NCBI RefSeq assembly: GCF_022953055.1 | Contig: NZ_JALJEJ010000011.1 | Span: 62,001 to 126,000 of the forward strand | Origin: Mucilaginibacter straminoryzae | GTDB taxonomy: Bacteria > Bacteroidota > Bacteroidia > Sphingobacteriales > Sphingobacteriaceae | DNA: 64,000 nt | Reading direction: 5' to 3' | Part shown: in pieces, positions 6,534 to 62,035 of the stretch | How the letters are laid out: every line of letters begins with the position of its first letter | How positions within the stretch are numbered: the first letter of the stretch is position 1 | Notes under the pieces: generated by a model | What the model saw: only the letters and a program-made list of their open reading frames with translations | What the model was told of the DNA's origin: nothing | Databases searched by the model: none | Program-made: the position numbers and the translations under genes

Positions 6534-7037
6534 ATGAAAAATGTGCTTATTTATGTTTTCTTGTTCCTTTCGCCGCTCTTGTTTTTTAGCGCTTATGCAC
6601 AAAAGGATACCATAATCAGGCGTTCGCCCGTAAAAACTTTAACCGACGCGCAATACAATGCCATCCTGAAAGGGGACGATGTAAATAACACCGCCGCATC
6701 CGCTACCATGAACGGCTACCCTTTGCCGGACAAGGTTTTGAAGTATAAAAAAGAACTGAACCTGACTCCCGCACAGTTGAAACAGTTTGATGAGATCATG
6801 AAAACGCTCGACCTGAAAAAGCGGGAAGTTGCTGTATCCGTGATCCGCAATGAAAAAATGCTGGACAGCATGTTCAGGCGGCGCTTTGTAAACGAAGGCA
6901 GTATTGTGTTCTATGGTAACCGTTACGGTTTGTACCAGGGCGAATTGCGTACCGCATTGCTTACGGCTTGCTTTAACACCCGGAAAGTGCTTACGCCTTA
7001 CCAGTTGAACAAGTTTTACACCCTCGAGAAACCATAA
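6534..7037 (+). CDS. Small secreted LTPAQ-motif protein, Spy-like
   Basis: A 167-residue protein with a clear signal peptide (hydrophobic run then SAYAQ, cleavage about residue 22-24). The mature part is basic and helical, with one LNLTPAQLKQFDEI segment (about residues 73-86) of the kind seen in Spy/CpxP periplasmic chaperones. The start at 6534 (ATG AAA AAT) gives a standard basic N-terminus; an in-frame ATG at 6528 would add Met-Leu. Likely periplasmic. It is weakly conserved and could be unrelated to Spy in function. Confidence 0.6.
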   Translation: MKNVLIYVFLFLSPLLFFSAYAQKDTIIRRSPVKTLTDAQYNAILKGDDVNNTAASATMNGYPLPDKVLKYKKELNLTPAQLKQFDEIMKTLDLKKREVAVSVIRNEKMLDSMFRRRFVNEGSIVFYGNRYGLYQGELRTALLTACFNTRKVLTPYQLNKFYTLEKP

Positions 7038-21165: not shown

Positions 21166-21915
21166 ATGCATTTCCCGGTAACGATACGGTTAGGCAGCTA
21201 TATGCTGCCGGTTCACTTTATTTGTGAAACGCTTGCTTATACCATTGGCTACCGTTATTACGTGTACCTGCGTAATCATAAGCACGACGTCATCAGCGAT
21301 CAGCATCGTATGGTCATTTTTATTGGCGCTGCCGTTGGTGGTTTTCTGGGTTCGCATATTTTAGGCGTGTTAGAAAAACCTTTGCTGTTACCGCAAATGA
21401 ACCTGGTATATTTTATGGGGAACACTACCATCGTCGGCGGGTTGTTAGGCGGGCTGATCGGTGTCGAACTAACCAAAAAGCTAATCGGTGTTACGGTATC
21501 ATCCGGCGATATGATGGTTTATCCGCTGATATTGGCGATGGTAATCGGGCGGACGGGATGTTTTTTGGCGGGTCTGGAAGATGGTACTTACGGTATCGCC
21601 AGCAACTTGCCCTGGGCCATAGATTTCGGCGACGGCATCAGGCGGCATCCTACCAACCTCTACGAAATTTTGTTCTGGCTGTTATTGTGGTGGGGTTTAG
21701 CATCTTTTGAACGCAAGCATCCATTGGCAGACGGCGCCCGGTTCAAACTAATGCTGGCTGTTTACCTTATTTTCCGTTTTGCAATAGAATTCATCAAGCC
21801 GGATTATTTCCTGCCGTTTGGATTGTCTGTGATTCAACTCGCCTGCGTAGCCGGAATTTTGTATTATTATCAAATATTTATCTATCCTAACCGGTTACTT
21901 AAACCTTATGCCTGA
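21166..21915 (+). CDS. Divergent prolipoprotein diacylglyceryl transferase (Lgt)-like membrane protein
   Basis: A 249-residue, about seven-segment membrane protein with an Lgt-like core: VGGLLGG, GRTGCFLAGLEDGTYG, RRHPTNLYE and FRFAIEFIKPD. Lgt moves diacylglycerol from phosphatidylglycerol onto lipoproteins. The conserved arginines of GRxG and FRF are kept. The histidine of the usual HGG motif (His103 in E. coli Lgt) is Val here, and the Asn of GNF is Cys. It is therefore probably not the housekeeping Lgt and may handle another lipid. Its last 8 bases overlap the start of the radical SAM gene, which indicates translational coupling. Confidence 0.8.
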   Translation: MHFPVTIRLGSYMLPVHFICETLAYTIGYRYYVYLRNHKHDVISDQHRMVIFIGAAVGGFLGSHILGVLEKPLLLPQMNLVYFMGNTTIVGGLLGGLIGVELTKKLIGVTVSSGDMMVYPLILAMVIGRTGCFLAGLEDGTYGIASNLPWAIDFGDGIRRHPTNLYEILFWLLLWWGLASFERKHPLADGARFKLMLAVYLIFRFAIEFIKPDYFLPFGLSVIQLACVAGILYYYQIFIYPNRLLKPYA

Positions 21916-23308
21916 ACGTCCGTACATCTATTACGATTTTACCTTAAGCATTTGCTCTACCTGCCTGCGACGCGTGGACGCCAAGATTGTGTTTGAAGAT
22001 GGTAAGGTATATATGCTGAAGAACTGCCGTCAGCATGGTTTTGAAAAAGTACTGATTGCGACCGATATCGACTATTATAAGAACTGCCGTAATTATGCGA
22101 AGCGCAGCGAAATGCCGCTGAAGTTTAATGCGGAAACCCATTATGGCTGCCCTTACGATTGCGGTTTGTGCCAGGACCATGAGCAGCATTCGTGCCTGAC
22201 GGTAATCGAGGTAACGGATCGTTGCAACTTAACCTGCCCGACCTGTTACGCCATGTCTTCCCCGCATTACGGGCGGCACCGCACACTGGAAGAAATAGAA
22301 CAAATGCTCGACGTGATCGTAGAGAATGAAGGCGAACCGGATGTGGTACAGATCAGTGGGGGAGAGCCGACAGTGCATCCTCAATTTTTCGAGATACTGG
22401 ATATCGCCAAAAAGAAACCGATCCGCCACGTGATGCTGAATACTAATGGTATCCGAATAGCTAAAGATGAAGCTTTTGTAGAAAGACTGGCGACTTATAT
22501 GCCTGATTTCGAGATATACCTGCAATTCGATTCGTTTAAGAAAGAGGCACTGGAACAACTCCGTGGCGAAGACCTGCGCGAAGTTCGGATGAAAGCCATT
22601 GAGCACCTGAATAAATATAACCTGTCGACCACACTGGTTGTCACCCTTCAAAAAGGCTTAAATACCGACGAGATCGGCAAGATTATCGAATATGCGCTTC
22701 AGCAGCCTTGTGTTAGGGGTGTAACATTCCAACCCACGCAACAGGCCGGCAGGTTAGAAAACTTCAACCCGGCGACAGACCGTTACACGCTTACCGAGGT
22801 GCGTACCGCGATATTAGAACAAACAAACATTTTTACGGCACAAGATCTGCTGCCTGTACCTTGTAACCCCGATGCCCTGGTAATGGGTTACGCCTTAAAG
22901 CTGGGCGGGCAGGTTTTCCCGTTAACACGGATGATCAACCCCGATGATCTGCTGGATAATTCAAAGAATACGATTGTTTACGAGCAGGACGAAAAGCTGA
23001 AAGCCCACCTGCTGCACATGTTTAGCACCGGTAATTCGGTAGAGACGGCCAAGGAGCATTTGAAATCCATTATGTGTTGCTTGCCCGAGATTGATGCGAG
23101 GGGATTAGGTTACGACAACCTGTTCCGGATCATCATCATGAATTTTATTGATGCGCAGAACTTTGATGTGAGGGCCATCAAGAAATCGTGCGTGCATATT
23201 GTGAATAAGGACATGAAGATTATCCCGTTTGAAACCATGAACCTATTCTACCGCGACGATAAAATTAATTACCTGAACCAATTGCGTAACGAAATACCGA
23301 TGTTATGA
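21908..23308 (+). CDS. Radical SAM protein resembling tetraether synthase (Tes) family
   Basis: A 466-residue enzyme. The radical SAM cluster motif is C106-N-L-T-C110-P-T-C113, followed by SGGEPTVHPQF. N-terminal to it are a rubredoxin-like set (C16xxC19, C40, H43) and a second cluster set (C81xxxC85xxC88, C96), in the phrase GCPYDCGLCQDHEQHSC. The C-terminus has MCCLPEID, then CVHIVNKDMKIIPF. This arrangement matches the archaeal tetraether lipid synthase group (MJ0619-like), which joins lipid chains by C-C bonds. The bacterial substrate is unknown. The gene overlaps the Lgt-like gene by 8 bp and the next gene by 4 bp (ATGA). Family assignment is from motif memory and needs a profile search. 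Confidence 0.8.
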   Translation: MPERPYIYYDFTLSICSTCLRRVDAKIVFEDGKVYMLKNCRQHGFEKVLIATDIDYYKNCRNYAKRSEMPLKFNAETHYGCPYDCGLCQDHEQHSCLTVIEVTDRCNLTCPTCYAMSSPHYGRHRTLEEIEQMLDVIVENEGEPDVVQISGGEPTVHPQFFEILDIAKKKPIRHVMLNTNGIRIAKDEAFVERLATYMPDFEIYLQFDSFKKEALEQLRGEDLREVRMKAIEHLNKYNLSTTLVVTLQKGLNTDEIGKIIEYALQQPCVRGVTFQPTQQAGRLENFNPATDRYTLTEVRTAILEQTNIFTAQDLLPVPCNPDALVMGYALKLGGQVFPLTRMINPDDLLDNSKNTIVYEQDEKLKAHLLHMFSTGNSVETAKEHLKSIMCCLPEIDARGLGYDNLFRIIIMNFIDAQNFDVRAIKKSCVHIVNKDMKIIPFETMNLFYRDDKINYLNQLRNEIPML

Positions 23309-23574
23309 CGGAACAACAACCACCCAAACAAGCTTCTGCAGATTTAAAAATACTGGGTTACAACCTGCTGATTTTTGCTGTTTATACCATCGCATGCGTG
23401 GCCGCAGGCAAGGATAATATCTTTGTAGGTTTTATGGTGGCTGTGTTTCATTTCCTGGTATGCGTGTTTGCAGCTATCATCCAAAAAAAGTGGAGCTGGT
23501 TGTTGGCCGGCTTCCTGATCCTGGTGATCGGTTTCGGTACCTGCGTAAACGGATTTAGTATTAGCGGGCATTGA
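23305..23574 (+). CDS. Small three-segment membrane protein of the Lgt-like/radical SAM operon
   Basis: An 89-residue protein with a hydrophilic 15-residue N-terminus and three hydrophobic segments (about residues 18-34, 40-60 and 66-86). Its ATG overlaps the radical SAM stop as ATGA, so it is translated with it. I recognise no family. Its place suggests a membrane anchor or partner for the lipid-modifying enzymes; this is inference. Confidence 0.7.
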   Translation: MTEQQPPKQASADLKILGYNLLIFAVYTIACVAAGKDNIFVGFMVAVFHFLVCVFAAIIQKKWSWLLAGFLILVIGFGTCVNGFSISGH

Positions 23575-23661: not shown

Positions 23662-24144
23662 ATGAAAAAGTTAATTAAATTCACATTTATAGCACTGGCT
23701 GTTACAGGTTTTGCAGCAGGTGCACATGCACAAACAGTAACTACTGCAGACAGCGCTAAGGCAGCCCATCATCGTGGCGGTCATCATGGTCATGCCGGCT
23801 TCGAGAAGTTCAAAGCTGTGCTTACACCAGAGCAGCAAGCCATGCTGAAGGCTAACCACGCGAAACAGAAAGAAGCCCGCAAAGCTTTCGTAGCTACACT
23901 GACACCAGACCAGAAAGCGATTATGAAAGACAAGACTTTAGAGCGGAAAGACAAGAAAGCTAAACTGCAAGCCAGCCTGACAGATGACCAAAAGAAAATG
24001 ATGGCTGATAACAAAGAATTGCGTAAAACTAACCATAAAGCATTTGTAGCTACGCTAACCGATGCACAAAAGGCGAAATTGAAAGAACTGCGTAAGAACC
24101 ACAAAGGTCACGGCCTGCACCGAGACAGCGAGCAAAAGTCATAA
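23662..24144 (+). CDS. Exported Spy/CpxP-like protein with four LTxxQ repeats
   Basis: A 160-residue protein with a signal peptide (to ~23, GAHAQ) and a His/Gly-rich stretch (HHRGGHHGHAG, about 36-46) that could bind metal. Four repeats follow: LTPEQQAML, LTPDQKAIM, LTDDQKKMM and LTDAQKAKL, spaced by Lys-rich helices. Spy and CpxP carry two such motifs and act as periplasmic chaperones or stress sensors; four is unusual. It is transcribed alone and ends in a terminator. Confidence 0.75.
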   Translation: MKKLIKFTFIALAVTGFAAGAHAQTVTTADSAKAAHHRGGHHGHAGFEKFKAVLTPEQQAMLKANHAKQKEARKAFVATLTPDQKAIMKDKTLERKDKKAKLQASLTDDQKKMMADNKELRKTNHKAFVATLTDAQKAKLKELRKNHKGHGLHRDSEQKS

Positions 24145-60121: not shown

Positions 60122-62035
60122 ATGTCTAAAATCATTGGAATCGACTTAGGAACAACAAACTCTTGCGTGGCCGTAATGGAAGGCAACGAGCCTGTGGTTA
60201 TTGCCAACAGCGAGGGCAAGCGCACTACACCATCTGTAGTAGCATTTGTTGATAACGGCGAGCGTAAAGTAGGCGACCCTGCTAAACGCCAGGCTATAAC
60301 CAACCCAAGAAAAACTATCTATTCTATCAAACGCTTTATGGGTAACAAGTTTGACGAAGTTACCAAAGAAACAGAGCGTGTACCATATGCCGTAGTTCGT
60401 GGCGACAACAATACGCCTCGTGTCGAAATCGGCGACCGTAAATATACTCCGCAGGAAATTTCTGCCATGATTCTTCAGAAAATGAAGAAAACTGCTGAAG
60501 ACTTCCTGGGAACTGAAGTAACCGAGGCGGTTATCACCGTACCTGCTTACTTTAACGATGCACAACGCCAGGCAACTAAAGAAGCCGGCGAAATTGCAGG
60601 TTTGAACGTTAAACGTATCATCAACGAGCCTACTGCTGCTGCCCTGGCTTACGGCCTGGATAAAGCCCACAAGGACATGAAAATTGTGGTGTTTGACTGT
60701 GGTGGTGGTACCCATGACGTGTCGGTACTTGAATTAGGTGATGGCGTGTTCGAAGTAAAATCAACCGACGGTGATACCCACCTTGGTGGTGACGACTTTG
60801 ACCAGGTAATCATCGACTGGTTAGCAGACGAGTTCAAAAGCGAAGAAGGCCTTGACCTGCGTAAAGACCCTATGGCTTTACAACGCTTAAAAGAAGCTGC
60901 TGAGAAAGCTAAAATCGAGCTTTCAAGCACTGCACAAAGCGAAATTAACTTACCATATATCACCGCTGTTGACGGTATGCCTAAACACTTGGTTAAATCT
61001 TTAACCCGTGCAAAATTTGAGCAACTGGCAGATAGCCTGATCAAACGTACCATTGAGCCTTGCCGTACTGCATTGAAAAATGCCGGTTACAGCACTTCTG
61101 ATATCGACGAGATTATCCTGGTAGGTGGTTCAACCCGTATCCCTGCCATTCAGGAAGCCGTTCAGAAATTCTTTGGTAAAGCGCCTTCAAAAGGTGTAAA
61201 TCCTGACGAAGTGGTAGCTATCGGTGCTGCAATTCAAGGTGGTGTATTAACCGGTGAAGTAAAAGACGTGTTACTGTTAGACGTTACCCCGCTTTCATTA
61301 GGTATCGAAACCATGGGTGGTGTAATGACCAAGCTGATCGAAGCGAACACTACTATCCCGACTAAAAAGTCAGAAACGTTCTCTACTGCATCAGACAACC
61401 AGCCTTCTGTAGAAATTCACATTCTGCAAGGTGAGCGTCCGATGGCTGCGCAGAACCGTACTTTAGGTCGCTTCCACCTGGATAGCATTCCGCCTGCTCC
61501 TCGTGGTGTGCCACAAATCGAAGTAACTTTTGATATTGATGCAAACGGTATCTTACACGTATCTGCTAAAGATAAAGCTACCGGTAAAGAGCAAAAGATC
61601 CGTATCGAAGCTTCTTCAGGTTTAACAGATGCTGAAATTAAGAAGATGAAAGACGAGGCTGAAGCTAACGCCGAAGCAGACAGAAGAGCAAAAGAGGAAG
61701 TTGAAAAACTGAACGGTGCTGATGCCCTGATCTTCTCTACCGAAAAGCAACTGAAAGAATATGGTGACAAAATCCCCGCTGACAAAAAAGCACCTATTGA
61801 GTCATCATTAGAAAAACTGAAAAGCGCTTACGCTGCTAAAAACCTGGCTGACATTGAAGCTGCACAAACAGAGCTCAACAACGCATGGGCTGCAGCATCT
61901 GAAGACATGTACAAAGCAACAGCAGACGCTGGTCAGCAAGGCGGCCAACAAGGTCCCGGCCCTGACGCTAACGCTGGTGGCGCACAAGGCAACTCAGATA
62001 CAGTAACTGACGTTGACTTTGAAGAGGTTAAATAA
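60122..62035 (+). CDS. dnaK: Molecular chaperone DnaK (Hsp70)
   Basis: A 637-residue Hsp70 of normal length. Motifs are [20 protein letters not shown], the substrate-binding domain [12 protein letters not shown] and an EEVK end. The phosphate-2 loop reads [10 protein letters not shown] rather than the common DLGGGTFDVS. The C-terminal lid is Ala/Gly/Gln-rich. It is transcribed alone, without dnaJ or grpE next to it, and ends in a strong terminator. Probably heat-shock induced. Confidence 0.98.

Follow-up and report, generated by a model that had tools for sequence, protein, structure and literature searches.

The window considered here, a stretch of 64,000 nucleotides from Mucilaginibacter straminoryzae (positions 62,001 to 126,000 of contig NZ_JALJEJ010000011.1, assembly GCF_022953055.1), carries a cassette of three genes. 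They encode a paralogue of the diacylglyceryl transferase Lgt, a radical S-adenosylmethionine (SAM) enzyme that is related along its entire length to the tetraether synthase GDGT-MAS yet falls outside the Tes equivalog, and a small membrane protein. The trio is a conserved, co-inherited unit, and its three genes almost certainly work together. As to the function that they share, we tentatively favour a reading in which the small proteins are substrates, with the Lgt paralogue lipidating a conserved cysteine near their C-terminus and the radical SAM enzyme modifying the lipid chains. A previous sequence-only reading of this DNA had proposed a system that makes or attaches an unusual lipid. The kinship with Tes and the unity of the trio support that proposal in part; it was incomplete, in that the small gene was given no role and its cysteine motif was overlooked.

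Conservation and Co-Inheritance of the Cassette

The three genes have overlapping stop and start codons, as had been noted from the sequence, with overlaps of 8 nucleotides (Lgt paralogue and radical SAM enzyme) and 4 nucleotides (radical SAM enzyme and small protein). The loci compared were drawn from the best 80 of 331 relatives, among which the closest named record is that of Mucilaginibacter phenanthrenivorans (92% identity), and from samples of one phylum, the Bacteroidota. Twenty-six loci were left out of the locus and motif counts, 16 of them being short, superseded or near-copies and the others (L112-L121) repeat fetches of places already covered; some of the strains still counted are nearly identical, and the loci are therefore not independent.

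Among 296 Bacteroidota genomes, 25 encode both enzymes, one the Lgt paralogue only, one the radical SAM relative only and 269 neither (Fisher p 5e-34, uncorrected for ancestry). The radical SAM query matched 26 of the 296 genomes, 22 of them at no less than 60% identity, and the Lgt-like profile likewise matched 26 above 140 bits, the next match scoring 109 bits. In the only genome with a lone radical SAM relative (G066) the gene is a true Tes of 494 bits (L135 5864-7321, the same gene as L108), and the genome with a lone Lgt paralogue (G017) has Gln at the place of His17. Two genomes, G034 and G272, hold both enzyme genes on separate contigs. As an observation in its own right, the G066 gene is the single one above the Tes cut-off among the 296 genomes and is a possible maker of membrane-spanning lipids.

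At the 99 fetched loci with both enzymes, the two genes always lie on the same strand (99/99) and within 60 bases of each other in 82 cases. At nine of 108 radical SAM loci the fetched stretch contains no Lgt-like gene: two start at a contig edge (L019, L051), two belong to genomes with an Lgt-like gene elsewhere (L132, L134), three are TrsS-like (L122, L124) or Tes (L135) loci, and two are unexplained (L052, L082). A linked small membrane open reading frame (ORF) with the motif G-x(1-3)-C and a tail of 1-18 residues is found at 99 of 109 radical SAM loci, the window included. The motif-less loci L017 and L102 end at contig edges, and the contig continuing L102 holds three copies; L125, L126 and L130 have Cys-motif small proteins that the ORF filter missed; and the genome of L132 (G034) has a similar small protein on another contig, with Thr-Phe-Leu-Thr-Cys and no Gly at -4. 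Three further ones are again L122 and L124, the two among the loci examined that have a soluble methyltransferase neighbour, and the true Tes locus L135, all of them lacking both an Lgt-like gene and a Cys-motif small protein in the fetched stretch. The tenth, L082, remains without the motif.

The members of the cassette diverge to different degrees: the median pairwise identity is 73% among the radical SAM enzymes but falls to 48% among the Lgt-like proteins and to 29% among the small ones, in a set of 38 loci which, like alignments A2 (18 rows) and A5 (16 rows), was chosen by hand. Two constrained enzymes accompanied by a loose partner with a fixed cysteine are what would be expected if that partner were a substrate.

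The Small Membrane Proteins and Their Cysteine Motif

The small protein of the window has no match in Pfam or NCBIfam. The three membrane segments attributed to it earlier were recovered as three hydrophobic stretches, picked up by 15-residue windows that begin at 16-22, 38-47 and 62-72. Little is common to the small proteins beyond a consensus, mostly G-x-[SG]-x-C followed by a short tail, at the end of the last membrane segment, and G76 and C80 are the sole invariant positions among the 16 proteins aligned in A5. The motif G-x(1-3)-C plus tail occurs in 138 of 160 linked small ORFs and in 21 of 185 control ORFs, counts made in the same sequences from which the motif was derived. Both sets are mechanical: a few of the linked ORFs, such as some in L021 and L097, are unlikely to be genes, and the controls, other small hydrophobic ORFs of the same loci, include many that are not. 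Among the 138 motif-bearing ORFs, Gly stands at -4 in 120 and Ser, Gly or Ala at -2 in 125. Most loci have one motif-bearing copy (68), and others have two (25), three (4) or four (2).

The frequency of Lys plus Arg falls from 0.145 per residue ahead of the last segment to 0.048 within the tail. Given the positive-inside rule, the cysteine is predicted to lie on the outer (periplasmic) face of the membrane, where Lgt acts. The C-terminal Cys motif, the tandem copies and the divergence of the small proteins together suggest that these are substrates.

The Lgt Paralogue

Membership of the Lgt family is supported by a PF01790 score of 75.2 bits (Pfam cut-off 24.9) and by a structure model (mean pLDDT, the predicted local distance difference test, 90.9) whose only PDB match at E<=0.001 is E. 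coli Lgt, 5azb. The TIGR00544 score, 24.9 bits, is under the equivalog cut-off of 118.9. Of the residues essential in E. coli (Y26, H103, R143, N146 and R239), R143 and R239 are kept and the others changed. The sequence-only reading had correctly picked out Val90 in place of the HGG histidine and Cys132 in place of the GNF asparagine, but as a special mark these changes proved weak. The genome has two Lgt-family genes, and the second, whose existence the sequence-only reading had put forward for checking, is not the canonical HGG form: this housekeeping copy (L001 1087-2256, G000 contig 19; 389 residues) reads TFYGGL and GRIGC, so that H103 is replaced by Tyr and N146 by Cys. A housekeeping-type Bacteroidota Lgt thus departs from two residues that are essential in E. 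coli and, because it lacks both, the losses at H103 and N146 are not peculiar to the paralogue of the trio. For the same reason Cys at N146, present in 107 of 109 ORFs (some of the loci being duplicates of others), was rejected as a hallmark of radical-SAM-linked Lgt proteins.

More telling marks are a non-aromatic residue at the H103 place (among 109 related ORFs, copies included, 108 have V, M, L, I or A and one was not read), a His that usually takes the position of Y26, and a head region that is short, with 29 residues from C132 to H161 as compared with 63 in the housekeeping copy. The His is not universal, being replaced by Tyr in L127 and L128 and by Gln in L129. According to PMC13251419, arm-2, H103 and the head domain govern the protein substrate choice of E. 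coli Lgt. A divergent second Lgt is already known from the same source: the mycobacterial MSMEG_5408 has the Lgt fold, equivalents of R143 and R239, and reported Y26H and N146C changes as in the window protein. MSMEG_5408 may be of the same kind as the cassette paralogue, whose own marks in this comparison are V, M, L, I or A at H103, the short head and linkage to a radical SAM enzyme.

The Radical SAM Enzyme

The kinship of the radical SAM enzyme with GDGT-MAS (MJ0619; PDB 7TOL and 7TOM) comprises domain order, the spacing of the rubredoxin-like site, the N-terminal Cys triad with its His, the radical SAM core and a full-length profile match (E 6.4e-131; phmmer E 3.4e-63). In agreement with this, the top PDB fold matches of its model, which is of moderate quality (mean pLDDT 69, below 50 at 348-400), are 7tom (3.9e-28) and 7tol (3.0e-27), the next being the peptide maturase SkfB (6efn, 1.1e-8). 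The Tes-like character proposed earlier is therefore supported as regards full-length kinship, but not as regards membership of the Tes equivalog. The enzyme scores 274 bits against Tes (NF045702), under the curated cut-off of 450, and in a tree of 21 rows, which carries long-branch warnings, the Tes rows split off at 100/99 and a branch of moderate support (87/80) has the 17 Lgt-associated enzymes together on one of its sides. A plain Tes is ruled out by this score together with the separate branch. The best full-length NCBIfam score is that of TrsS (NF045646, a radical SAM (seleno)protein of unknown function), at 327 bits and under the cut-off of 490, which is reached in none of the 296 Bacteroidota genomes. 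No relative was found on the viral contigs searched.

All the cysteine positions listed in the sequence-only reading (16, 19 and 40; 81, 85 and 88; 96) are indeed present. Further cysteines occur at 60, 268, 319, 390, 391 and 428, of which C319, C390, C391 and C428, unmentioned there, are invariant across close relatives (36-row alignment A3). In the profile alignment, Glu442 takes the place of the Cys of the GDGT-MAS motif PFC; Met439 is the only C-terminal cluster ligand named for GDGT-MAS in the published text compared. A C-terminal cluster, if present in the cassette enzyme, would be bound differently than in GDGT-MAS. The C81/C85/C88 triad is missing in L124 and in L125, L126 and L130, which form one branch, and owing to its loss in that branch the N-terminal cluster is not essential to the whole group. 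At L005 and L010 (5001-6398 in both) the radical SAM gene is split into two ORFs by a frameshift or an assembly error.

Proposed Mechanism

In the mechanism that we favour, the positive charges ahead of the last segment would put the short tail of the small protein outside the inner membrane, on the working side of Lgt. There the Lgt paralogue, with its retained equivalents of R143 and R239, non-aromatic residue 103 and short head, would transfer a glyceryl lipid to the cysteine. Signal peptidase II favours a small residue at -1; since most of the small proteins have none there, the protein would probably retain its membrane segments after lipidation. Either before or after transfer, the radical SAM enzyme would act on the alkyl chains of the lipid, joining their ends within or between lipids. 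The outcome would be a small protein whose anchor is a modified lipid, perhaps membrane-spanning or macrocyclic. We infer the lipidation step from the motif, the topology and the partner enzyme, and the action on lipid chains from ancestry alone. In its fullest form, this would be a new protein lipidation, in which a small multi-pass protein would acquire, on its C-terminal Cys, a lipid welded by a Tes-family enzyme into a membrane-spanning or macrocyclic anchor, an outcome that we hold to be unlikely.

Several observations weigh against the proposed mechanism. The radical SAM enzyme is expected in the cytoplasm, on the other side of the membrane from the cysteine, which is predicted to be periplasmic. 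Control ORFs, too, often have a Cys as such among their last 22 residues (93/185 as compared with 147/160 linked ones). The classic lipobox consensus is [LVI][ASTVI][GAS]C, and only 3 of the 138 motif-bearing ORFs fit it, the window protein (FGTC) not being one of them; G, A or S at -1 is found in 26 of the 138. At six Chitinophaga loci (L062, L065, L066, L070, L072 and L079, about 6690-7030) the Cys-bearing small gene is followed by a second one devoid of Cys. Genome G013 (L142 2643-3053) has a small protein with LTFATC-GGLMIFE, like its congener G034, with neither enzyme detected at the thresholds used; this protein is either a relict or evidence against strict dependence on the enzymes. As for the radical SAM enzyme itself, its N-terminal cluster Cys were lost in one branch of relatives and its C-terminal Cys set differs from that of GDGT-MAS.

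Alternative Explanations

The cassette could instead serve the synthesis of free lipids, which was the view of the sequence-only reading. The radical SAM enzyme would couple membrane-lipid tails as Tes and Mss do, the Lgt-like protein would transfer a glyceryl moiety or a head group, and accessory or scaffold functions would fall to the small proteins. The full-length kinship with GDGT-MAS fits this possibility, as do the crystallisation of GDGT-MAS with bacterial phospholipids (PMC9433317) and the report that the bacterial Mss, an enzyme of Tes-like architecture compared here by description alone, acts on diacylglycerol lipids and joins iso-C15 diacylglycerol tails (PMC13274423). The cassette enzyme, though, is under the Tes cut-off and on another branch, neither partner accompanies the sole true Tes of the 296 genomes, and the tandem copies and the single Cys motif kept at 29% small-protein identity would be left unexplained, so that free lipid synthesis seems improbable. 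Another possibility draws on the same tandem, variable small genes, whose position next to a radical SAM gene recalls ribosomally synthesised and post-translationally modified peptides (RiPPs): the enzyme would modify the small protein itself, for instance by a cross-link or a thioether, and the Lgt paralogue would merely anchor it, amounting to a diacylglycerol RiPP (DAG-RiPP) served by a dedicated Lgt. Known DAG-RiPPs include those of Chryseobacterium (PMC12636315), and the PDB match that follows GDGT-MAS is SkfB, a radical SAM enzyme that matures peptides. Nonetheless, the small proteins conserve nothing besides the Gly and the Cys in A5, the predicted location of the Cys is extracytoplasmic, and the radical SAM fold is far closer to GDGT-MAS than to SkfB, for which reasons we doubt this explanation.

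The DAG-RiPP is the nearest known concept to the cassette, since the small modified peptide DybA of Chryseobacterium also receives diacylglycerol on a Cys (PMC12636315). It does so with an N-terminal signal peptide, a classic lipobox, the housekeeping pathway and an MNIO enzyme, whereas the cassette has a C-terminal segment, another motif, a dedicated Lgt paralogue and a radical SAM enzyme. A different chemistry altogether, such as one directed at a cofactor or a thiol, would follow if the enzyme were a TrsS relative, with the Lgt paralogue and the small proteins sharing an envelope function and Cys80 remaining unlipidated. TrsS gives the best full-length family score, relatives on six plasmids adjoin a soluble methyltransferase gene, and ICMT-like and DUF4395 genes are inserted in the cassette of G156 and a DUF4395 gene in that of G121. 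This we regard as quite unlikely, given that no methyltransferase neighbour is common to the core cassette loci and that the Lgt paralogue is rare and tracks the radical SAM gene.

Novelty and Implications

Bacterial Tes homologues are already known and rank as potential producers of membrane-spanning lipids (PMC8941075, PMC11868695). Homologue searches for such producers would probably pick up the cassette enzyme on the strength of its GDGT-MAS match (3.4e-63), although it belongs to a separate, Lgt-coupled branch, a point of relevance to geochemistry. By title and abstract, and among the matches listed, the literature pairing Lgt or diacylglyceryl transferase with radical SAM or membrane-spanning terms held no cassette with a small membrane protein, subscription papers lying mostly outside the coverage. 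The available portions of PMC8939145 and PMC12636315 likewise describe no cassette of Lgt, radical SAM enzyme and small membrane protein. If the favoured reading were true, lipoprotein maturation would be joined to tetraether lipid chemistry, and a lipoprotein-type modification would be located at a C-terminal membrane segment. To our knowledge, and with no search aimed at it, such a modification at that place is known nowhere else.

Plasmid Relatives and Cassette Variants

Ten plasmid records carry a relative of the radical SAM enzyme. In four of them (Persicobacter, M. avium, M. branderi and Nonomuraea) an Lgt-like gene adjoins it, and the pairing recurs on actinobacterial plasmids. The M. 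branderi plasmid, where an Lgt-like gene is followed by two small proteins (ending GGLC-TGLNPADYAG and VGVC-TGLNPAMYTGA) and the radical SAM gene, shows the same cassette plan in another phylum. In the other six a methyltransferase gene adjoins the relative, and the annotation of the stretch shown includes no Lgt; these are the Tes/TrsS relatives of a Mycolicibacterium plasmid (L122) and five haloarchaeal plasmids (L124, L146, L147, L148 and L149). Their pairing with a soluble methyltransferase in place of Lgt sets these TrsS-like enzymes apart from the cassette enzyme. "TrsS-like" is our own label, L122 scoring 335 bits and the haloarchaeal ones being so named without a score. PMC8941075 mentions Tes homologues of unknown function in Halobacteria, which these methyltransferase-paired relatives may explain.

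Extended cassettes occur at L127 (4486-8088) and L128 (3435-6941), in the order radical SAM gene, ICMT-like gene (L128), DUF4395 gene, Lgt-like gene and small membrane protein gene, the small proteins ending in LFGAC or IFGSC plus a tail. The insertions of G156 and G121 likewise stand between the radical SAM and Lgt-like genes.

Features of the Locus

Table 1. Cassette genes and residues of interest, in window coordinates.
Feature	Coordinates	Strand	Basis
Lgt paralogue, 249 aa, Lgt-fold membrane enzyme	21166..21915	+	PF01790 75 bits, structure model, PDB match
His17, aligned with E. coli Lgt Tyr26	21214..21216	+	Alignment; nearly invariant in A4
Val90, aligned with E. coli Lgt His103 (motif TIVGGL)	21433..21435	+	Mapping on E. 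coli Lgt
Arg129 to Cys132, aligned with E. coli Arg143 to Asn146 (motif IGRTGCFL)	21550..21561	+	Mapping; Cys also in housekeeping copy
Arg204, aligned with E. coli Lgt Arg239	21775..21777	+	Mapping on E. coli Lgt
Tes-related radical SAM enzyme, 466 aa	21908..23308	+	NCBIfam scores, phmmer, profile, fold match
Rubredoxin-like site C16-X2-C19-X20-C40-X2-H43	21953..22036	+	Residue positions; same spacing in GDGT-MAS (PMC9433317)
N-terminal cluster candidates C81/C85/C88, H91, plus C96	22148..22195	+	Residue positions, alignment
Radical SAM motif C106-X3-C110-X2-C113	22223..22246	+	Domain search, residue positions
C-terminal invariant Cys C319, C390, C391, C428 (putative cluster role)	22862..23191	+	Alignment A3
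Small membrane protein of 89 aa with three hydrophobic stretches; candidate substrate	23305..23574	+	ORF, alignment
Cys80, putative site of lipidation in the small protein (G76-F-G-T-C80 followed by nine residues)	23542..23544	+	Alignment, motif counts

Scans for promoters and terminators gave no excess over chance (6 found and 6.7 expected, and 3 found and 3.8 expected, respectively). The gene next downstream of the trio (23662-24144) encodes an LTXXQ-motif protein (PF07813).

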